Positions 2,641 to 55,856 of a stretch of DNA of 64,000 bases are shown in pieces (position 1 is the stretch's first letter; each line of letters starts with the position of its first letter). Origin of the DNA: Effusibacillus dendaii (lineage in GTDB: Bacteria; Bacillota; Bacilli; Tumebacillales; Effusibacillaceae); NCBI RefSeq assembly GCF_015097055.1, contig NZ_AP023366.1, forward strand, positions 186,001 to 250,000, written 5' to 3'. The notes beneath the pieces were generated by a model. The model did not search any database, was not told where the DNA came from, and saw only the letters and a program-made list of their open reading frames with translations. Both the position numbers and the translations under genes were made by a program.

Positions 2641-4698
2641 ATGAAACCGGGCGAGTATATGAGTAAAGACGAACCGATTTTGATTAATGCCGGGAGAAAA
2701 ACGGTGACTCTCACAGTGATGAATTGTGGGGATCGACCGGTTCAGGTCGGCTCTCATTTTCATTTTCATGAAGTGAACAAAGAGTTGGAATTTGACCGGG
2801 AGAAAGCGAAAGGAATGCGGTTAAACATTCCTGCCGGAACAGCGGTTCGGTTTGAACCTGGGGAACAGAAATCGGTTGTTTTGGTAGCTATCGCAGGACG
2901 GCAGGAAGTTTACGGTCATAATGATCTTGTATCCGGGTCAGTAAAACAAGTGTTAGACCAGAATCCGGCATCTGCACAGGAAGGGCTACCGGTATCCCGT
3001 GAGGCATACATCGCCATGTTCGGTCCAACGACGGGAGACAAGGTTCGTTTGGCTGATACGGAACTTGTGATCGAAGTGGAAAAGGATTTCACAGTATATG
3101 GAGATGAATGCAAGTTTGGAGGAGGCAAAGTGCTGCGTGACGGAATGGGCCAATCCTCTCGGGCGACTCGTGCGGAAGGCGTGTTGGATCTGGTCATTAC
3201 CAACGCGTTGATTCTGGATCATTGGGGGATTGTAAAAGCGGACATCGGGATAAAGGACGGATGCATCATTGGCATCGGAAAATCCGGGAATCCGGATATT
3301 ATGAATGGCGTACATCCCGATTTGGTAATTGGCGCTTCAACGGAAGTGATCGCCGGGGAAGGCATGATCGTAACAGCCGGTGGAATTGATACGCATATCC
3401 ATTTTATTTGCCCGCAGCAGATTGATACCGCCCTTTCCTCCGGCATCACCACAATGATTGGAGGGGGAACCGGCCCCGCTACGGGAACAAATGCAACTAC
3501 CTGTACCCCTGGAGCTTGGAATATTCATCGCATGTTGGAAGCGGCTGAAGCATTTCCCATGAACCTTGGATTCCTGGGAAAAGGGAACGCTTCTGGAAGG
3601 GAGGCCCTGGAGGAACAAATTCAGGCAGGCGCAATCGGTTTGAAATTGCATGAAGATTGGGGAACAACTCCGGCAGCTATCGATACCTGTCTGTCAGTCG
3701 CCGATCAGTATGACGTCCAAGTGGCTATTCATACGGATACTTTAAATGAAGCGGGCTTTGTTGAAGATACAATCAAGGCGATAGCCGGTCGAACCATCCA
3801 TACGTATCACACGGAAGGGGCCGGAGGGGGACATGCGCCTGACATCATTCGTTTGGCCGGCGAAACCAACGTAATTCCATCGTCCACCAATCCGACCCGC
3901 CCTTTCACAGTAAATACGATTGAGGAGCATCTGGACATGTTGATGGTATGCCATCATCTGGACAGCAGAATCCCGGAGGATGTGGCTTTTGCAGATTCCA
4001 GGATACGACCGGAGACTATAGCAGCGGAAGACGTCCTTCACGACCTCGGGGTTTTCAGCATCATCAGTTCGGATTCTCAGGCCATGGGCAGGGTGGGTGA
4101 AGTGATTCTCCGCACATGGCAGACAGCTGACAAAATGAAAAAGCAGAGAGGGGCACTTCCGGAAGAGCAGGGAGAGAACGACAATTTTCGGGCAAAACGG
4201 TATGTGGCCAAATACACGATTAATCCTGCCATCGCTCATGGAATTTCGGAATATGTGGGTTCCGTTGAGAAGGGAAAATGGGCGGATCTTGTCTTATGGA
4301 AACCGGCTTTCTTTGGAGTCAAACCGGAGTTGGTATTGAAAGGCGGTTTTATCGCCTATGCGGCAATGGGCGATCCGAATGCCTCTATCCCTACTCCACA
4401 GCCGGTTATGGGACGCCCCATGTTCGCTTCTTTCGGGTTGGCCGCCAAGAGCCGTTCCATAACTTTTGTGTCCACGTCGGCCTTTGAGGCAGCCGTACAT
4501 GAACAGCTGGAACTCAAGAAGAAGGTGCTGCCCGTTAAAAATTGCCGCAATATCGGCAAAAAGGACATGATTCATAATCATGCAACGCCCCGAATCGAGG
4601 TGAATCCGGAAACCTACGAAGTAAAGGTGGATGGCAACCTGGTGACCTGTGAGCCGGCAGAGACAGTGCCGATGGCCCGTTTGTATTTTCTGTTTTAG
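2641..4698 (+). CDS. ureC: urease beta-alpha fusion protein (UreB-UreC)
   Basis: A single 685-residue frame carries a complete urease beta subunit (about residues 1-110, with the [10 protein letters not shown] motif) joined to a complete alpha subunit (from about residue 119, [20 protein letters not shown]). All alpha active-site residues are present: His252 and His254 (THIHF), the carbamylated Lys335 and His337 (LKLHED), His364, His390, flap Cys437 and His438 (VCHH), and Asp478 (SDSQ). Each equals the classical Klebsiella number plus 118. Beta and alpha are normally separate chains, or gamma and beta are fused in Helicobacter, so this arrangement is unusual. No stop or good internal start was found at the junction. 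Ni2+ insertion would need UreDFG, encoded next. Confidence 0.95.
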
Positions 4699-25946: not shown

Positions 25947-26765
25947 ATGGTAAGTAACTTAGAAGGAGAGGCTTGCATGAACGATCTGCGTAAATTGACA
26001 ATCGACCAACTGAGAAACTGGTTGGCCTCACAGACCGAATTATCCGAAACAGACATAAAGCAACTGAGACAAGACACAAGAGCGGGTGTGCGGGCACTGG
26101 TGGAGTCCCAGCTGCGCAAACGGGCAGCCATTCAGGCGGAAGCGGAGCGCATGGAACGATTGTGGGACTATGAACGATCGCTTGCCGCAAAAGGGTTCCG
26201 GCTGATTGCCGGGATCGACGAAGCGGGACGCGGTCCGCTGGCCGGTCCGGTAGTGGCGGCTGCCTGCATCCTGCCAATCGGCATTGTCATACCGAAATTG
26301 AACGATTCCAAGCAGATCAGTCCGCAGCAGCGGGAAGAACTGTTCCACCAAATACGGGAACAAGCGGTTGCGTATGGGATCGGGATGGCAGATGTTGACT
26401 ATATCGACACCTATAACATTTTGCAAGCTACATATGCAGCAATGCGGCGGGCGATCCGCGCGATCGGTACGGAACCGGACCATCTGCTCACCGATGCGGT
26501 CACGATTCCAGATGTCGCCGTCCCGCAACAGGCTGTAATAAAAGGGGATGCAAAGAGCCATTCGATTGCGGCCGCATCGATATTGGCCAAAGTGACACGA
26601 GATCAGATGATGATCGAATATGGACGCATGTATCCGGAGTACGGATTTGAGCAGCACATGGGGTACGGTACGCCGGAACACATCGCGGCTTTGCAAAAAT
26701 ACGGCGTTTGTCCGATTCACCGCAAGTCGTTTGCCCCGGTCACAGCCCTGTTGTCAACCCATTGA
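25947..26765 (+). CDS. rnhB: ribonuclease HII
   Basis: 272 residues with the RNase HII start GIDEAGRGPLAGPVVAAA near residue 78, containing the first two acidic residues, and DAVTIPDV further on. An N-terminal extension of about 75 residues is common in Firmicutes. It nicks RNA-DNA hybrids and single ribonucleotides in DNA. ATG or an in-frame start at 25947 precedes a stretch MVSNLEGEA; ATG 25977 with AGAAGGAGAGG upstream is the better start, giving 262 residues. Confidence 0.93.
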   Translation: MVSNLEGEACMNDLRKLTIDQLRNWLASQTELSETDIKQLRQDTRAGVRALVESQLRKRAAIQAEAERMERLWDYERSLAAKGFRLIAGIDEAGRGPLAGPVVAAACILPIGIVIPKLNDSKQISPQQREELFHQIREQAVAYGIGMADVDYIDTYNILQATYAAMRRAIRAIGTEPDHLLTDAVTIPDVAVPQQAVIKGDAKSHSIAAASILAKVTRDQMMIEYGRMYPEYGFEQHMGYGTPEHIAALQKYGVCPIHRKSFAPVTALLSTH

Positions 26766-26844
26766 TCGGGGGGCCGTTTTTTCAGCAGGCAACCGGGTTC
26801 ATACAGGCACGCAGGGCATTCCGGCCGTGAGGGAGGGGATTCTG

Positions 26845-28647
26845 ATGAATATTTTGCCGTCGCTGTTGCAGGTTTTGGGGCAAACATTGCGTCCGGATAC
26901 CTCTGCCAAACGGATCGAACTGGCAGTCGGCGAAACGTTGAATGGCATTGTGCTGGATGTGCTTGACCGTGAAACCGCGTTGGTGGACATTAAAGGGCTG
27001 ACAGTCAGAGCGCAAACGGATACTGCCGTGACAAAAGGCGCCGTATTGCCGTTGGTGGTGGTCGGTACAACCGATAACGGCCTGTTCGAACTGAAAATCA
27101 ATTCGTTTGCAATGGCACATACAGAGAATCAGGCGCTTCCAGCCCGGGGGGACACGACAGGCTCGGAAACAGCGCTTCCGCTTGACAGGCTGCTGCAAAA
27201 TTTACAGGTTAAAGATTCCGCTTTTACCCGCCAGGTTGCCAGTCGCCTGCTGTCAGCCGGGATTTCTGTTACCCCTTCTCTTTTGCAATCGATTGAGCAG
27301 CTCTATTCCAAGGTGGAACAGGCGGGACAAAGTCAGTCTGCGCTGGACACCATTTTGCAAATGGTACAGAAAAAGATTCCGCTGACCGAATCCGCTTTTC
27401 GCGCGCTCGATTCCTTGCAGCAGGGGCCATCGCTCAGCGAAATGGTCTCCCGGCTGCTGTCGCAACCGATTGCGCCATCGGTCGAGAATCAAAACGAGCA
27501 GGGGGGCGGAACGTCTCTCTTAAAAGCGGAAACGTCCCTTCCGAAAGCCGGACCCCCTGATTCGAAAGTGGGAATTCCCGATCCAAAAGCCAACATTCCG
27601 AATCGTGCGGACGGCAAACCGGATCAAACGAGAGAGCCCATCGTGCGGGAGGGAGCAGATGCAAAGGGAGCAGAGGCAAATCCCATGGCGAATCGGCCAT
27701 CATCCTCGGAAATCGGCCAAACCGCAGCGCGGGCAAATACGGCGGCACAGCAAAGCACGGTCGTACAGGCAAATACGGCGGAAGAGATAAACCTGGCAGC
27801 AGACAGAATACCGTCTGCGTGGAGACAAGCCTCTGCGGTTCCTGACGGCCAGACCCGTTCTCCGCGCCAGTTGGAAGCGGCAGACAACCGGATGCAGATG
27901 TCGGCGGCTGCTGACCTTTTTGGCAAAACCAAGCCGGAAGATGCTGCCAAACTGGCCGATCGTTTGGCAGCTTCCTTCCCGCTTACAGATATGCGGATTG
28001 AACTGGATCGCTTGGCCGATCTGTCGCCAGGTGAACGGGGAGCGGCAGTGAAGGCTGTTGTAGAAAAATTGGGATTGTCGCACGAACAGCATGTCGCCCA
28101 ACTGGTGAAAACGGATTTTGCCGGAGCAGTGCCGGAAACGCTCAAATCGCTTTTGCTGGCCGAGGTTCAGTCGGGTACGGCACAGCCGGTTGCGGAACAG
28201 ATTCTCACCCATTTAACAGGGCAGCAGTTGATGCATTCTGCAAAAGACGACAACAGCCCGTTTCTTTATCAGTATTTGACGCTTCCTGTTTTGGTAGGCA
28301 AACAGACGTCAGACGCCAAGGTTCACCTGTTGACCCGGCGCAAAAAAGGGCGCGAATTAGACCCTTACAATTGTTTTCTTTATTTTCATCTGCAACTGCC
28401 GTCATTGGGGGATCTGGGCATTCATGTGCAAATCGTCGAGCGAATCGTTTCCCTCCGTTTTATTACGGAGCGGGAAAAAAATCTCTCGCTTGCCGATGAC
28501 ACATTGGCTCCTTTGCGGGATGGATTAAAACAGATCGGCTATCAGTTGGGCGGTGTCCGCCAGGAGGCGGGACAGGCAAACACAAGGCAGCCGTTCGCCA
28601 ACCTCTCTCCCATTTTGACAAATGGGCTGCTGGATCTGAAAATCTGA
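26845..28647 (+). CDS. ylqG: FliK-like hook-length control domain protein (YlqG type)
   Basis: 600 residues from ATG 26845 (GGGAGGGG 7 bases before). The N-terminal domain has a strand-rich pattern (LNGIVLDVLDRETALVDIKG), the middle is Ala/Pro/Lys/Asn-rich and repetitive (KAETSLPKAGPPDSK), and the C-terminal domain resembles the Flg_hook domain of FliK (PYNCFLYFHLQLPSLGDLGIHVQIV). In Bacillus the equivalent gene lies between rnhB and the FlhB-C-like gene. Its function is not established; the pairing suggests an export-ruler and gate pair. Low complexity in the middle suggests disorder. Confidence 0.75.
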   Translation: MNILPSLLQVLGQTLRPDTSAKRIELAVGETLNGIVLDVLDRETALVDIKGLTVRAQTDTAVTKGAVLPLVVVGTTDNGLFELKINSFAMAHTENQALPARGDTTGSETALPLDRLLQNLQVKDSAFTRQVASRLLSAGISVTPSLLQSIEQLYSKVEQAGQSQSALDTILQMVQKKIPLTESAFRALDSLQQGPSLSEMVSRLLSQPIAPSVENQNEQGGGTSLLKAETSLPKAGPPDSKVGIPDPKANIPNRADGKPDQTREPIVREGADAKGAEANPMANRPSSSEIGQTAARANTAAQQSTVVQANTAEEINLAADRIPSAWRQASAVPDGQTRSPRQLEAADNRMQMSAAADLFGKTKPEDAAKLADRLAASFPLTDMRIELDRLADLSPGERGAAVKAVVEKLGLSHEQHVAQLVKTDFAGAVPETLKSLLLAEVQSGTAQPVAEQILTHLTGQQLMHSAKDDNSPFLYQYLTLPVLVGKQTSDAKVHLLTRRKKGRELDPYNCFLYFHLQLPSLGDLGIHVQIVERIVSLRFITEREKNLSLADDTLAPLRDGLKQIGYQLGGVRQEAGQANTRQPFANLSPILTNGLLDLKI

Positions 28648-49094: not shown

Positions 49095-50105
49095 ATGGCG
49101 CGTGCACCGAAATTGTCCGGTCGCCAAAAGGCCGCGATTCTGCTGGTATCTTTAGGTCCGGAAATTTCCGCGAAAATTTTTAAGCATCTGCGGGATGATG
49201 AAGTGGAGCAGTTGACACTGGAAATTGCAAATGTTCGTAGGATTGAGCCGGAACAGAAAGAACAAGTTTTGGAAGAGTTCCACCAAATTTGTATAGCGCA
49301 AGAATATATTTCGGCAGGCGGTATTGATTACGCCAAGGAAGTGTTGGAGAAAGCGCTGGGAAACCAGAAGGCAATCGAAATCATTAACCGTTTGACAGCA
49401 TCTTTGCAGGTAAGGCCTTTCGAGTTTGCCCGCAAGGCAGATCCGAATCAGATTTTGAACTTTATTCAGAATGAGCATCCGCAAATTATTGCATTGGTGT
49501 TGTCCTATTTGGAGCCTCCTCAGGCTGGCATGATTCTATCGGCGCTGCCGCAGGAATTGCAGGTTGATGTGGCAAGACGGATCGCTTTGATGGACCGCAC
49601 TTCGCCTGAAGTGGTAAGTGATGTAGAACAAGTTTTGGAAAACAAACTGTCGCAAATGGCTGTTCATGACTTTTCGGCAGGCGGTGGCATCGACGGTATC
49701 GTACAAGTGCTTAACGGTGTCGACCGGGCGACGGAAAAAACGATTCTGGAGGCTCTGGAACTGCAGGATCCGGAACTGGCGGACGAAATCAAGAAGCGGA
49801 TGTTTGTGTTCGAGGATATTGTGCTGCTTGATAACCGAGCGATTCAGCGAGTCATTCGCGATGTGGAAACATCCGATCTGCAATTGGCGTTGAAAGTGGC
49901 CAGCGAAGACGTACAGGGATTGGTGTTCAAAAATATGTCGAAACGAATGGCCGAAACATTCAAGCAGGATATGGAATTTATGGGGCCTGTCCGATTGCGT
50001 GATGTGGAAGAAGCGCAGCAGCGGATTGTAGGTGTGATCCGCCGCCTGGAAGAAAGCGGCGAAATTGTGATTGCCCGTGGCGGAGGTGATGACGTCATTG
50101 TCTAA
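49095..50105 (+). CDS. fliG: flagellar motor switch protein FliG
   Basis: 336 residues. LSGRQKAAILLVSLGPEISAKIFKHL opens the N-terminal domain; the middle-domain EHPQ motif is NEHPQIIALVLSYL; the C-terminal domain carries the charged torque helix (RVIRDVETSDLQLALK). It links FliF to FliM and generates torque. RBS AGGAG overlaps the fliF stop region. Confidence 0.97.
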   Translation: MARAPKLSGRQKAAILLVSLGPEISAKIFKHLRDDEVEQLTLEIANVRRIEPEQKEQVLEEFHQICIAQEYISAGGIDYAKEVLEKALGNQKAIEIINRLTASLQVRPFEFARKADPNQILNFIQNEHPQIIALVLSYLEPPQAGMILSALPQELQVDVARRIALMDRTSPEVVSDVEQVLENKLSQMAVHDFSAGGGIDGIVQVLNGVDRATEKTILEALELQDPELADEIKKRMFVFEDIVLLDNRAIQRVIRDVETSDLQLALKVASEDVQGLVFKNMSKRMAETFKQDMEFMGPVRLRDVEEAQQRIVGVIRRLEESGEIVIARGGGDDVIV

Positions 50106-50892: not shown

Positions 50893-52214
50893 AACAATTC
50901 CCTTTGCAGCATTATTTGCAAATCATCAGACAATCGTCTCGTTTTGTTCATTATGGAAGAGTCAAACAGGTCATTGGACTGACGATTGAAGCACATGGTC
51001 CAGCTGCCAAAATGGGCGATGTTTGTTGGATTTATCCGGCGAATCATAATGTGCCCTGTATGGCGGAAGTGGTTGGGTTTCGAGATGATCGCGTGTTGCT
51101 CATGCCGCTTGGCGATTTGGGAGCGATTGCGCCTGGCAGCGAAGTGAGGGGTACTGGCAGAGCGCTGCATGTCACCGTCGGTGCGCAGTTGTTGGGGAGG
51201 ATTTTGAACGGACTCGGCGAGCCGATTGACGAGTTGGGACCGCTGGCAAGCAGCGACGAACGGCCGACCGAAAACGAACCTCCCAATCCTTTGGCCCGAC
51301 CCGTCATCCGTTCCCCCTTAAGCGTCGGGGTAAGATGCATTGACTCGTTGTTAAGCGTAGGACGGGGACAACGGATCGGGATTTTTGCCGGCAGCGGGGT
51401 TGGCAAAAGCACTTTGCTGGGTATGATTGCCCGCAATACATCAGCCGATGTCAACGTGATTGCGTTAATCGGTGAACGGGGCAGAGAAGTCCGCGAGTTT
51501 ATCGAAAAAGACCTTGGGCCGGAAGGTCTGGCTCGTTCCGTTCTGGTTGTCGCCACCTCTGATCAACCGGCGCTTGTTCGCATTAAGGGAGCTTCTGTGG
51601 CAACCGCTATCGCGGAGTATTTTCGAGACCAAGGGTTGCATGTCAATTTAATGATGGATTCCATTACCCGTTTCGCAATGGCAAAAAGGGAAGTCGGACT
51701 CGCGGTCGGGGAACCGCCTGCCACAAAAGGCTATCCCCCTTCCGTTTTTGCCGTTTTACCGAAACTTTTGGAACGGGCCGGGACAAGTTCAAAAGGTACG
51801 ATTACCGGTTTTTATACCGTATTGGTGGATGCGGATGACCTTAATGATCCGGTCGCCGATGCGGTCAGAGGAATCCTGGATGGACATGTCGTATTATCTA
51901 GAGAACTTGCAAATAAAGGTCATTTTCCGTCAATTGATGTCTTAAGCAGTGTCAGCCGGGTGATGAACGATCTCGTTTCACCGGATCACCGGAAAGCAGC
52001 GGCGAATTTTAAAAAATTGGCGGCTGCCTACCGGGAGGCGGAGGATTTGATCCATATCGGGGCGTATCGCACCGGTTCAAATCCGATTATAGACAAGTCG
52101 ATTCAGTACCGGGCGCTGATGGACCAGTTTTTGGTTCAAACAGTTGATGAAAAGGCGGATTACGAGACAGCCGTTGAATCGCTTATCGAGTTGTTTGGGG
52201 GAATGGAACTGTGA
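50889..52214 (+). CDS. fliI: flagellar export ATPase FliI
   Basis: 441 residues; Walker A GIFAGSGVGKSTLLG, ERGREVREF and VVATSDQPALVR, which are FliI/F1-beta type. Hexameric ATPase that helps protein export. Start overlaps fliH by 4 bases; end overlaps fliJ by 4. Confidence 0.97.
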   Translation: MKQFPLQHYLQIIRQSSRFVHYGRVKQVIGLTIEAHGPAAKMGDVCWIYPANHNVPCMAEVVGFRDDRVLLMPLGDLGAIAPGSEVRGTGRALHVTVGAQLLGRILNGLGEPIDELGPLASSDERPTENEPPNPLARPVIRSPLSVGVRCIDSLLSVGRGQRIGIFAGSGVGKSTLLGMIARNTSADVNVIALIGERGREVREFIEKDLGPEGLARSVLVVATSDQPALVRIKGASVATAIAEYFRDQGLHVNLMMDSITRFAMAKREVGLAVGEPPATKGYPPSVFAVLPKLLERAGTSSKGTITGFYTVLVDADDLNDPVADAVRGILDGHVVLSRELANKGHFPSIDVLSSVSRVMNDLVSPDHRKAAANFKKLAAAYREAEDLIHIGAYRTGSNPIIDKSIQYRALMDQFLVQTVDEKADYETAVESLIELFGGMEL

Positions 52215-52657
52215 ACGACAAATTGCGGACCACCCATAAAATCGGTTCCTTGAAAGAATCGCTGGCTCGCCAAACAGAACTCGATCTGGCGGAGGCGATC
52301 CGGCAATTGGAGCAGGCGGAATTGGAGCTGCAACAACTGCAAAACGAGTATTATCAACTGGCAGCCGATTTTGACAGGGAACGGCAAACCGGGATTTCTG
52401 GCCAGCAATGGCAGTCCTGGATTCTATGGCTGAATCAGAAACGGCATCAGATCGAACTGAAGCAACAGGTTTGCCGCCATGCGGACGAACATGTAAATCG
52501 GATGAAAGAACTAATGCTGGAACGTCACCGTGAGAAACAAATCTGGCAGCGCTTGTATGAAAAACAGTTGCAGATATGGAAGGAAACGGTCGGCAAACTG
52601 GAGCAGACGGAACTTGACGAAGTGAGCATACGGCAATATCGCGCACAGAATGTTTAA
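52211..52657 (+). CDS. fliJ: flagellar export chaperone FliJ
   Basis: 148 residues from GTG 52211, almost entirely coiled coil (LAEAIRQLEQAELELQQLQNE). FliJ is a general chaperone and part of the FliI hexamer stalk. Overlap with fliI (GTGA) indicates coupling. Confidence 0.88.
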   Translation: MNDKLRTTHKIGSLKESLARQTELDLAEAIRQLEQAELELQQLQNEYYQLAADFDRERQTGISGQQWQSWILWLNQKRHQIELKQQVCRHADEHVNRMKELMLERHREKQIWQRLYEKQLQIWKETVGKLEQTELDEVSIRQYRAQNV

Positions 52658-52710: not shown

Positions 52711-54174
52711 ATGGCGGAACAAACGGAACGCAATTACGGAAAGATGGAATGGTTGTTTTACATGATTATCCTTCCGTTGCTGTTTACGAGTGTAATGGTG
52801 GGGTTAGTCCTTCAGTTGATGGGATATAACGTAACCGGAAAGTTGTTGACGGTAGCCCGTCATACCCCGGGGCTGAGCGCCATTATTCCGCCGGACGAAG
52901 CGACAAAACAGGAACAATCGCAAGTCAGCAAATTGCAAAAAATGTTGGAGGATGTAAAACAGGCGTTAGGTATGTCGCAACAGACGAACGACTTGCTGAA
53001 GGCTGATTTGGATACGAAAAATTCGGAACTGGCGAAATTGCAGCAGCAGGCAGCCGATAAATTAAAAGCGGATCAGCAGCTGCAGCAAAACATGGCGCAG
53101 TGGAAACAACAGGCCAAAATGTACAGCAATATGTCGCCGCAAAACGCAGCTTCCATCCTTTCTCAAATGCCTGTGGCTGATGCGAAAAACATCCTGAGTG
53201 TCATGAATGCGGACGCGAAAGCGTCAATTCTCGAAAAAATGGACCCGCAAAAAGCGGCAGGCATTGAATCTGGCGTAGCGGTTCAGAATGCGGCTGCAGC
53301 CAGTCCTTTCACTACGAACCAGGCGAAAGTTTATGGCTTGATGAATCCCGCCAAAGCGGCAGCCGTGTTGTCTTCCATGCCCGTTGCGGATAGCCGCCAA
53401 ATTTTGAGCGGTATGAATCCGGAAAGCCGGGCGCCGATTCTGGAAAACATGGATCCGAAATATGCGGCCAGCATCGAAACGGGTCTGCCGCTGCAAACGT
53501 CAACGCCGACATCAACGCCAACGGCTTCTGCGCCTGTGGCAGGCCCGCCAATTCCAAGTTCGGTTGCTTCTGCGAATGCGAAATCAAGTCCGTATTATAC
53601 AGAAGCTGCCAGAATATACGGTTCGATGTCGCCTGATAAAGCGGCAAGCATTTTATCGCAACTCCCGTTAAAGGAGATTCGTGATGTGATGTATGGAATG
53701 GAACCGGAAGCCCGTTCCAAAATCCTTGAAAAATTGGACCCGAATCTTGCGGCTAGGGTGCAATCCAGCAACGTCAATGAACCTTTCCCTGCACAAGGGC
53801 CGACAAACGTCTACGATGCTATGGATCCTGCAAAAGCGGCAAGTATACTTGCCCAACTGCCGATTGAAACAACTACAGAAAAGTTGATGGAAATGGGGAT
53901 GGACAAACGGGCCGAGATTTTATCGAAGATGAAACCGGAGGATGCAGCGCGCATCTCGATTGAAATGGATAAAGATTATTGGCCGTCCATCAGCAATTGG
54001 AGCACACAGGCAAATATTTATGAGCGAATGGATCCTGCGGCGGCCGCTAAAATCGTTCAGAGTATGCCGCCTGCACAGGCAAAACAGGTAGTGGATGAGA
54101 TGGATCGGGACAAGCGGGATGAAATGATCAAGTATATGGATCCAAAGAAAGTGGCGCAAATCATGCAACAATAG
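52711..54174 (+). CDS. MotE/YlxF-like protein with five MgtE_N-type repeats
   Basis: 487 residues. An N-terminal membrane helix (about residues 13-37) is followed by a coiled coil (residues 70-130). Then come five copies of an about 45-residue MgtE_N-like unit starting near residues 138, 208, 303, 368 and 437. Each has the pattern Y-x2-M-x-P-x2-AA-x-I/V with a later M-D/N-P-x2-A-A. MotE proteins of other Firmicutes usually have one such unit. A Pro/Thr/Ala-rich linker (about 265-295) separates copies two and three. It lies between fliJ and fliK, the usual place of this gene in Bacillus. Role as stator-associated or assembly chaperone is inferred. Confidence 0.88.
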   Translation: MAEQTERNYGKMEWLFYMIILPLLFTSVMVGLVLQLMGYNVTGKLLTVARHTPGLSAIIPPDEATKQEQSQVSKLQKMLEDVKQALGMSQQTNDLLKADLDTKNSELAKLQQQAADKLKADQQLQQNMAQWKQQAKMYSNMSPQNAASILSQMPVADAKNILSVMNADAKASILEKMDPQKAAGIESGVAVQNAAAASPFTTNQAKVYGLMNPAKAAAVLSSMPVADSRQILSGMNPESRAPILENMDPKYAASIETGLPLQTSTPTSTPTASAPVAGPPIPSSVASANAKSSPYYTEAARIYGSMSPDKAASILSQLPLKEIRDVMYGMEPEARSKILEKLDPNLAARVQSSNVNEPFPAQGPTNVYDAMDPAKAASILAQLPIETTTEKLMEMGMDKRAEILSKMKPEDAARISIEMDKDYWPSISNWSTQANIYERMDPAAAAKIVQSMPPAQAKQVVDEMDRDKRDEMIKYMDPKKVAQIMQQ

Positions 54175-54254
54175 CGGGTTTCCGGGTATTGGGAATATCT
54201 ATAAGCCTTCGGGAATTGGCAATTTGGCAATGTCTTTGAGAGGAGGTGATAACG

Positions 54255-55856
54255 ATGAATACGATGGGAAGTATGGCTCCGCAAATGGCGGTAACGGCGG
54301 TTCCGCAAACGGCACAAACATCTGTTGCGGCGTCTGCTGGTAATGCAAGCAGGAGTTCCGTTAGTAGTGCAAAGAATTCCAATTTGTTCCAGAAGTTGTT
54401 TGCCGATCAATTGGCGCAGGATTCGGCGACCGATAGAGCACCTGCCCTGAATCGGTTGAAGCAATTGCTGTCCGGCCTGGACCCGCAGCAAATGGCCGAT
54501 GTGTTGGCGATGCTCGGGATGAGCGCGAGTCAGTTGCAGAGTTTGCTTGGGGCTTCTCTGGGAACTGCTGAGCCGATAGGTGCAGGCGGAACAACTCAGA
54601 ATGCCGTCATGAGTCAGATTGGCGCTTCAAATGCAGGCATGCTGGCGCCTTTTTCGTCCAACTTGGTTGTTTTCGGGCAATTGTTGGCTGCCTCCGGTCA
54701 AGCATCTGTTGGGTTAAACGGACAGACGGCGACAGAAACGCCATTGGATCGATCCGGAAATCTATTGACCATCCTGCAGGATAAATTGGCCAAGGTATTG
54801 GAAGCTGCTGGAATCCCTGTGGAAACGGCTGTTGCCAAAATGAAACAGGCAATGGGTCAAGACAAGTCCCTGGTGGAAACGATCGCTCAGCTTTTGCAAT
54901 CCGCTGATTCGATGCAGCCAGTCAATACAGAATTGGAATCCGTGAATGCCGTTCAAACAGCCGGTCAGACCGCGCAATCGGTCAACTCGATCCAGACGGC
55001 ACAAGGTGCCTTCTTGACATTCGTTGCAGGAGGCAGCAGTAAAGCTGCAGCAGTCGATTCGAAAACAAACGGCAAGCAAGATCTGCCCAAAACCGGCAAG
55101 TCACAACCGGTTGGCATGCAGCAACCCGCTCAGATACGTCCGGAACTGGACAGTTTGCAGTCAGCTGTTTCACAGACTCAACCGGATGCAAAGCAGGCGG
55201 GCCAAGACCAGACAAACGGTTTGGGAAATCCTGATCGGGGAACGAATCCGAATCTTTCGGCAAAAACTGCTGATTCCGATTTGAATTCGCTGTTGCTGTT
55301 CCAAATGGCAACTGGCAAGCCTGCTGACGGAGCGAGCCAATCGGTTGGACAAACTGCTCAACGGCCGATACAGGTTACGATCCCTGCGGAACAGTTTAAA
55401 ACCGATTTTGGCGGCATGTTGTTAAAACAGGCTACTTTGGTTCAGCAGGGTGGAATGAATGAAATGCGGATTACGTTGGTGCCGGAGGGGCTCGGTGAAA
55501 TGCAGGTTCGAATTGCCGGTGAGAATGGTCGGATTTCTCTGCAGATCTCGGCTGATACACAATATGCCAAAGGGTTGCTCGATTCCGGAATCGGTATGCT
55601 GAGGCAGCAACTTGAATCGCAAGGCATCCAAGTCGTCCGGCTGGAAGTGGTTTCCTCTTCTGCCAACAACAATACATCAGCCAGTCCGCAAGGCATGTTC
55701 AGTGGTCAACAGAATCCGCAGCAGCAGACTGGATCGGGAACCCATAATCCAAACCGTGGTCAACAGGGAAATGCTCCTATTTCAATTGAGGACAGCGCTT
55801 TCTTGACAGGGGATTGGGGTGAGAAAGCAAACGGGCAATTTGATATGACAGCATAG
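54255..55856 (+). CDS. fliK: flagellar hook-length control protein FliK
   Basis: 533 residues from ATG 54255 (AGGAGGTG 8 bases upstream). The N-terminal and middle parts are rich in Gln, Ser, Ala and Thr and probably disordered; the C-terminal Flg_hook domain has MRITLVPEGLGEMQVRIAGENGRISLQ. It measures hook length and switches export through FlhB. The extended length fits Firmicute FliK. Confidence 0.9.
   Translation: MNTMGSMAPQMAVTAVPQTAQTSVAASAGNASRSSVSSAKNSNLFQKLFADQLAQDSATDRAPALNRLKQLLSGLDPQQMADVLAMLGMSASQLQSLLGASLGTAEPIGAGGTTQNAVMSQIGASNAGMLAPFSSNLVVFGQLLAASGQASVGLNGQTATETPLDRSGNLLTILQDKLAKVLEAAGIPVETAVAKMKQAMGQDKSLVETIAQLLQSADSMQPVNTELESVNAVQTAGQTAQSVNSIQTAQGAFLTFVAGGSSKAAAVDSKTNGKQDLPKTGKSQPVGMQQPAQIRPELDSLQSAVSQTQPDAKQAGQDQTNGLGNPDRGTNPNLSAKTADSDLNSLLLFQMATGKPADGASQSVGQTAQRPIQVTIPAEQFKTDFGGMLLKQATLVQQGGMNEMRITLVPEGLGEMQVRIAGENGRISLQISADTQYAKGLLDSGIGMLRQQLESQGIQVVRLEVVSSSANNNTSASPQGMFSGQQNPQQQTGSGTHNPNRGQQGNAPISIEDSAFLTGDWGEKANGQFDMTA

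Follow-up and report, generated by a model that had tools for sequence, protein, structure and literature searches.

The window, the 64,000-nucleotide stretch of Effusibacillus dendaii DNA analysed here, belongs to a genome assembly of a single contig (G000). It carries a flagellar gene cluster in the order fliF, fliG, fliH, fliI, fliJ, a five-unit gene and fliK (Table 1). Pfam was run on the products of fliH, fliJ and fliK, and the other cluster genes were named by sequence and place. The five-unit gene is flanked by fliJ and fliK, as expected for the genes of E-ring proteins. Plasmid records gave no match.

Table 1 Features of the five-unit gene and its flagellar neighbours. Positions are those of the window, residues those of the encoded protein.
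Feature	Position	Strand	Basis
fliF (MS-ring), presumed binding partner, 506 aa	47562..49082	+	named by sequence and place
Separate fliG-like ORF	49095-50105		ORF list of the window
fliJ, upstream neighbour	52211..52657	+	Pfam FliJ 9.7e-13; TIGR02473 51.5 bits, cut-off 50.45
ylxF/flgY/motE-type gene, 487 aa, five ARM-like (MgtE_N) units	52711..54174	+	ATG start; ORF, Pfam, unit HMM, AlphaFold2
N-terminal membrane helix, residues 11-36	52741..52818	+	AlphaFold2 helix, hydropathy
Long single helix into unit 1, presumed dimeric coiled coil, residues 64-139	52900..53127	+	AlphaFold2; coiled-coil-type Pfam/PDB matches
Unit 1, residues 135-185, site of the relatives' single head	53113..53265	+	unit HMM, self-alignment, tree
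Linker 1-2, 19 residues	53266..53322	+	pLDDT <50 at 190-196
Unit 2, residues 205-255	53323..53475	+	unit HMM, self-alignment, AlphaFold2
Linker 2-3, 44 residues, Pro/Thr/Ala/Ser-rich, no counterpart in G002	53476..53607	+	pLDDT <50 at 264-275, 280-291
Unit 3, residues 300-350	53608..53760	+	unit HMM, self-alignment, AlphaFold2
Linker 3-4, 14 residues	53761..53802	+	unit spacing, AlphaFold2
Unit 4, residues 365-415	53803..53955	+	unit HMM, self-alignment, AlphaFold2
Linker 4-5, 18 residues, partly helical in the model	53956..54009	+	unit spacing, AlphaFold2
Unit 5, residues 434-484, pairs with G002 unit 5 (support 93)	54010..54162	+	unit HMM, self-alignment, tree
fliK, downstream neighbour	54246..55856	+	Pfam Flg_hook 8.7e-17

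FliK had 536 aa here, and the ORF in the same place had 439 aa in the congeneric one-head genome G001; no link with head number is claimed. A second FliK-like protein, of 675 aa, was encoded upstream of the flagellar cluster and separate from it (26620-28647, + strand), with a Flg_hook score of 29.3 bits, slightly below the cut-off of 29.8. Elsewhere in the window, a 685-aa ORF (2641-4698, + strand) was a fused UreB-UreC, with Urease_beta at residues 3-99 and Urease_alpha plus amidohydrolase at residues 118-571.

The repetition within the five-unit gene was visible in the protein only, and Tandem Repeats Finder detected no repeat in its DNA. Pfam MgtE_N matched the protein with an E-value of 2e-41, in five stretches that each passed individually, and a unit HMM gave five matches (E 2e-18 to 3e-14); this HMM was trained iteratively on these loci and is therefore in-sample, with Pfam providing the independent count. 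In a self-alignment, the best ungapped 51-residue score was 146, whereas 200 shuffles of residues 135-487 averaged 26.3 (sd 5.4, maximum 43). The units were about 50 residues long. Their pairwise identities were 29-57% in protein and 45-60% in DNA, and their charge varied, reaching for example a net -8 in unit 5 of G002, the other five-unit genome of the genus.

An earlier note, made from this DNA alone, had proposed a MotE/YlxF-like protein with five MgtE_N-type repeats. The repeats were confirmed, with more than one real unit in the Pfam result, and the identity was borne out by the MgtE_N match, the place between fliJ and fliK, the helices and the heads. The note had the units start at residues 138, 208, 303, 368 and 437; their number stood, and each core begins three residues earlier. 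Its wording that the units are well conserved with each other was too strong, given the identities above. A Pro/Thr/Ala-rich linker was present after unit 2, as it had said, and this linker is also Ser-rich; G002 has only 12 residues in its place.

The AlphaFold2 model of the full protein (46 sequences) had a mean pLDDT of 84 and a pTM of 0.57. All five units were folded, mostly with pLDDT >90, so that the structure prediction suggested in the earlier note came out in its favour, and the mutual placement of the heads was left unpredicted at this pTM. Before the units, the membrane helix claimed there was recovered, as was a long helix at the place of its coiled coil. The model has the membrane helix, a short helix (41-51), the single long helix running into unit 1 and then units of short helices. 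The membrane helix was called from this model and hydropathy. The long helix spans 76 residues, with pLDDT block means of 85-97 from residue 71 onward.

Modelled alone, unit 1 reached a pLDDT of 93.6 (19 units aligned). Its best Foldseek match was chain B of 9a67 (E 5.1e-03, probability 1.00, TMq 0.86, rmsd 1.0 over 51); magnesium-transporter and FliG/C-ring chains ranked next. With the whole model, Foldseek returned mainly long helical repeat proteins (E >0.01, rmsd 12-15), with MgtE and FliG lower down; neither the whole-protein nor the unit 1 model had a match reaching E 0.001. VIA-align gave the unit 1 model a Z of 8.9 with 9a67, 8.3-9.3 with seven FliG/C-ring chains, 6.0-7.7 with MgtE chains and 4.4-7.2 with further FliG chains, values that are modest for a small helical domain and are backed by sequence matches to the same families. 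Superposed on the YlxF of 9a67, the unit 1 model had an rmsd of 1.0-1.1. The entry is titled 'Integrative model of FLIF-YLXF by crosslinking MS and deep learning', and a FliF-YlxF contact rests here on that title. We take PMC11383924 to be its source paper and its YlxF, judged by the gene name, to be from Bacillus subtilis. In that paper, 135 B. subtilis pairs were modelled from in-cell crosslinks, and the main text names neither FliF nor YlxF (PMC11383924).

Only recently could the E-ring be traced to a protein; according to a 2026 review, it consists of FlgY and homologues such as MotE and FlbB (PMC13023049). Such homologues, B. subtilis ylxF among them, are detectable with the MgtE_N model, and their genes most often adjoin fliJ or fliK (PMC13023049). 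The members studied make up the E-ring, which encircles the MS-ring (PMC13023049, PMC11870540), and are extracytoplasmic (PMC13023049). FlgY has a long helix and a four-membered superhelical head, and it forms dimers (PMC11870540). Because of the MgtE_N match, the fliJ-ylxF-fliK order, the membrane helix, the 76-residue helix and the heads, we assign the five-unit protein, from its sequence and predicted structure, to the FlgY/MotE/FlbB/YlxF family, the E-ring subunit type. A four-helix MgtE_N/ARM-like head lies C-terminal to the long helix according to Pfam, the model helices and the fold match. The match to the NCBIfam FlbB model was weak (29.4 bits, cut-off 110).

Two other identities were considered and rejected. 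The protein is not an MgtE magnesium transporter: CBS and the MgtE membrane domain were absent from the 14 Pfam families listed to E 1, and TIGR00400 scored 27.9 bits against a cut-off of 232.75. Neither is it a full-length FliG, as TIGR00207 reached 17 bits against a cut-off of 226.7 and the FliG C-terminal domain was absent from the same Pfam list. Pfam FliG_M (63 bits) and FliG_N (37.8 bits) did pass their cut-offs of 25, because the ARM-like fold is shared; their best stretches fell inside units already counted as MgtE_N.

Head number was counted in 100 family proteins, namely the window's protein and 99 proteins from fetched loci that passed a membrane-helix and spacing filter, with units counted at E <1e-3. 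One head was found in 80 proteins, two in 18 and five in 2. A few organisms are doubled in the set of 99 through two collections (e.g. L031 and L138). Three loci had been excluded beforehand. L143 and L146 have two units each, but the frame lacks a membrane helix in L143 and shows no clear one in L146; L034 has no ylxF-type gene. At L143 (G060:C1:943000-949500), the YlxF-type gene spans two frames of 155 and 168 aa with three matches, and it may be broken or mis-sequenced. Thus the statement that relatives usually have one copy held for most of them, and two copies were common in some families. The second heads of L012, L016, L017, L022, L023, L027, L029, L144 and L145 formed a type of their own, marked by a short central insertion; those of L147 and L148 grouped with their own first head.

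Whole-genome searches with the family profile extended the count. These counts were made at E 1e-5, so that weak second units may be missed and some matches are other proteins; the class and phylum samples overlap and together make up less than the whole phylum. In the class sample, 302 of 398 genomes matched, and five matches were found only in G000 and G002. G158 had four matches and G036, G057 and G060 had three, and all four genomes had two units each on reading. The phylum sample had 235 matching genomes out of 398, with five matches only in G000. Three or four matches were found in 13 of these genomes; the seven that were read had one or two units. Outside this reading were G548, G571, G665, G688, G709 and G729, five of which are congeneric with the two-unit genomes G545 and G595. 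All 39 genomes in the order of G034 matched, none with more than three matches, and in the six three-match genomes the third match lay elsewhere in the genome.

Five heads are apparently a rare variant of a known flagellar protein, ordinary in its identity and noteworthy for the number of heads and its lability. In a literature search, no title or abstract dealt with multi-head E-ring proteins or with head number, supplementary tables and subscription papers lying outside its scope. A search combining MgtE_N with the flagellar motor found both terms in the two E-ring papers only, and a passage search of the FlgY preprint found no statement on tandem or multiple ARM heads (PMC11870540). PMC10090944 and PMC12199754 gave no hit for any of the terms looked for.

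Four genomes of the genus were sampled, and Pfam counted five units in G000, five in G002, two in G003 and one in G001. Each of the other 10 genomes of the order had one unit in the gene; G007 showed a second, unplaced profile match in the whole-genome search. An expansion relative to relatives, as the earlier note had claimed, is thus seen within the genus and in 2 of the 100 family proteins, and five units are not the norm in the order. The one-unit gene of G001 ended about 40 bases before fliK, without a remnant of further units. In G003, the gene ended about 60 bases before the next ORF (fliK by place), and in G002 its stop codon lay about 110 bases before the contig end.

In a species tree built from the first 395 positions of TopA and from FliI, G003 branched first in the genus (SH-aLRT 94.2, UFBoot 93), and the order of G000, G001 and G002 was poorly supported (12.8/46). 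Trees of the units were noisy, with about 50 columns and odd groupings, such as unit 1 of G003 with the single unit of G007, from another family (81). The fifth units of G000 and G002 paired (93), joined weakly by the second unit of G003 (69), which in an earlier tree with fewer units had grouped with unit 2 of G000 (0.81). Units 3 and 4 of G002 were mutually closest (98), and the tree placed them closer to unit-1 types (63) than to their namesakes, units 3 and 4, in G000.

The plain reading of these trees suggests an ancestor with about two heads, later gains with a separate duplication in G002, and probably the loss of heads in G001; a one-head ancestor with more gains would be an alternative. 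Head number is labile in evolution within the genus. The expansion looks like an event of its own, because 9 of the 11 two-head proteins from elsewhere have second heads that cluster apart. For the same reason, an origin of the extra heads from the second head of other two-head families was not supported.

Third codon positions of the window's units were 24-39% identical, and first and second positions 56-72%. The duplications are old, because third positions are near saturation. Between G000 and G002, units 3, 4 and 5 were 42, 38 and 40% identical, and unit 1 was 52-68% identical within the genus. The pN/pS values for units 1-5 of the two genomes were 0.30, 0.39, 0.62, 0.43 and 0.54, rough figures since synonymous change is near saturation. 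The ten units of G000 and G002 had domain scores of 52.0-66.2 bits, and one-head orthologues had a median of 56.4 bits (range 23.9-66.9, n=80). No unit looked degraded. By these sequence measures, the units are old and each keeps the pattern of the fold under constraint.

For one-head relatives, published work points to the MS-ring of the rotor as the partner (PMC13023049, PMC11750108). Over its whole length, FliF aligned with 71% identity and 4 gaps to that of G001 and with 68% identity and 12 gaps to that of G002; the comparison covers these three genomes, the FliF of the two-head G003 lying outside the pieces fetched. A larger MS-ring is not suggested, because FliF is of nearly the same length. 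MotB-type frames had 245-269 aa in G000 (two), G001, G002, G007 and G010. A change of partner was therefore rejected, since the lengths of FliF and MotB-type proteins, where found, do not follow head number. Nothing tying the extra units to the stator was found among the MotB-type frames or in a non-systematic look at partners. The larger binding surface, or longer reach toward stator or rotor, that the earlier note had put forward is conjecture. G000 had two MotB-type genes (G000:C1:2784345-2784518, L249; G000:C1:2864158-2864319, L252), G001 and G002 had one match each, and the fragmented G003 had none.

Our preferred reading, which we hold with a probability of about 0.55, is that the gene encodes an E-ring subunit in a five-head version, its extra heads lying outside the membrane in the same ring. 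From sequence and prediction, the chain consists of the membrane helix, the long helix and head 1, fused to this helix as in one-head relatives; linkers of 14-44 residues then lead to four further heads. By analogy with relatives, the chain would dimerise and its heads would stack to encircle the MS-ring, with unit 1 as the head that stacks there, and the ring might serve as a bearing. The extra heads, also outside the membrane, might fill further positions of the ring, so that fewer chains would be needed, or they might build a second tier; either arrangement would make the ring more cohesive. A ring with the 34 head positions of C. jejuni could be filled by about seven five-head chains. If 17 dimers were kept, there would be 170 heads, which would need tiers or free heads. 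It counts against this reading that no E-ring has been demonstrated in a monoderm in the literature examined. Five heads also seem unnecessary for a kept gene, because the close relative G001 has one, and the faster divergence of the extra heads is what weak constraint would give. Further points against it are the weak topology signal from the charges of this protein, the unpredicted placement of the heads and Foldseek matches that fell short of E 0.001.

One rival is a neutral or nearly neutral expansion and contraction, in which one head does the work and the extras are tolerated passengers, gained and lost by recombination. We regard this as possible, though on balance unlikely. It would fit the scatter of head numbers over four genomes of one genus, the faster divergence of the extra heads and the lengths of FliF and MotB, which show no matching change where found. 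The close pair of units 3 and 4 in G002 is in line with it as well, as the equal count of five seems to have been reached partly separately. Against it, all ten heads of the five-head genomes score within the range of the 80 one-head orthologues, pN/pS is below 1 for all five unit pairs, if only roughly given synonymous saturation, and duplications this old have left no degraded-looking unit. More doubtful is a longer reach, in which the tethered extra heads would bind something other than the MS-ring, for instance the stator, the rod or parts on the wall side, and connect it with the E-ring. The linkers, two of which contain stretches of pLDDT <50, and the differing charges of the units would suit such tethers, and E-ring proteins of other phyla do touch additional scaffold proteins, which in turn connect to stators (PMC13023049, PMC11870540). 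Against this, the MotB-type frames are similar in length, no partner specific to five-head genomes was seen in our non-systematic look, and the long linker is present in only one of the two five-head genomes.

With the opposite topology, the heads would be cytoplasmic and work together with the FliG/FliM switch, which has ARM domains similar to them. The closest solved folds do include FliG and the cytosolic MgtE domain, and the FliG_M and FliG_N matches are above their cut-offs, a resemblance that the shared ARM-like fold leads one to expect in any case. The charge bias of the window's protein is weak, with 2 K+R before the membrane helix and 1 after it (net charge -1 and +1). Across the family the bias is clear, 76 of the 100 proteins having more K+R before the helix, 13 equal numbers and 11 fewer; studied relatives are moreover extracytoplasmic (PMC13023049), and we consider a cytoplasmic location very improbable. 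An artefact of assembly or gene calling has a close to negligible chance. Contigs of the draft genomes G002 and G003 do end near the gene, but the window comes from a one-contig genome, and an independent draft genome also has five units. With units 45-60% identical in DNA and no repeat reported by Tandem Repeats Finder, collapse or expansion during assembly is unlikely, and the one-unit gene of G001 is closely followed by fliK without a remnant.

How ARM-like heads stack given differing symmetries, and why the effect on motility varies by species, are open questions about the E-ring (PMC13023049). A genus whose proteins are otherwise alike but carry one, two or five heads provides a natural series for studying head function. 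It does so in monoderms, where the E-ring is least known, and FliF hardly varies in length among the three genomes in which it was seen. If the E-ring reading is right, a genus that gains and loses heads between one and five would imply a ring that can accommodate, or even make use of, neighbours joined covalently, in contrast to the one-head rings known from published work. As a tentative and rather improbable extension, the number of ARM heads per chain may be an evolvable setting of the E-ring, giving a monoderm motor another chain-to-head stoichiometry or tiers of unlike heads.

Among known systems, the YlxF of Bacillus (9a67 chain B) shares the place by fliJ/fliK, the membrane helix, the long helix and the ARM-like head, and it differs in head number, since the chains in the counted Bacillus loci have a single head, against five here. 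FlgY of Campylobacter and Helicobacter, FlbB of Borrelia and MotE of Sinorhizobium and Cereibacter likewise have a long helix and a four-helix, right-handed MgtE_N/ARM-like head (PMC11870540, PMC13023049). Unlike the window's protein, they have a single C-terminal head as described, and their hosts are diderm. Their rings differ in size: 34 FlgY heads from 17 dimers surround the MS-ring in C. jejuni (PMC11870540), and 16 FlbB dimers, or 32 heads, were reported in Borrelia burgdorferi, together with a pull-down with FliF and a proposed bearing role (PMC11750108). The N-domain of MgtE and the ARM domains of FliG share the fold and a detectable sequence likeness, whereas the window's protein lacks the CBS and MgtE membrane domains and falls far below the cut-offs of the NCBIfam mgtE and fliG models. 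More than one head is also found in the two-headed proteins of the YlxF/FlgY type, 18 of the 100 counted, which come from other Bacilli and from some named records such as Heliobacterium mobile (L037). However, 9 of the 11 placed in the tree have a second head of another type, marked by an insertion that the extra heads of the window's protein do not have.
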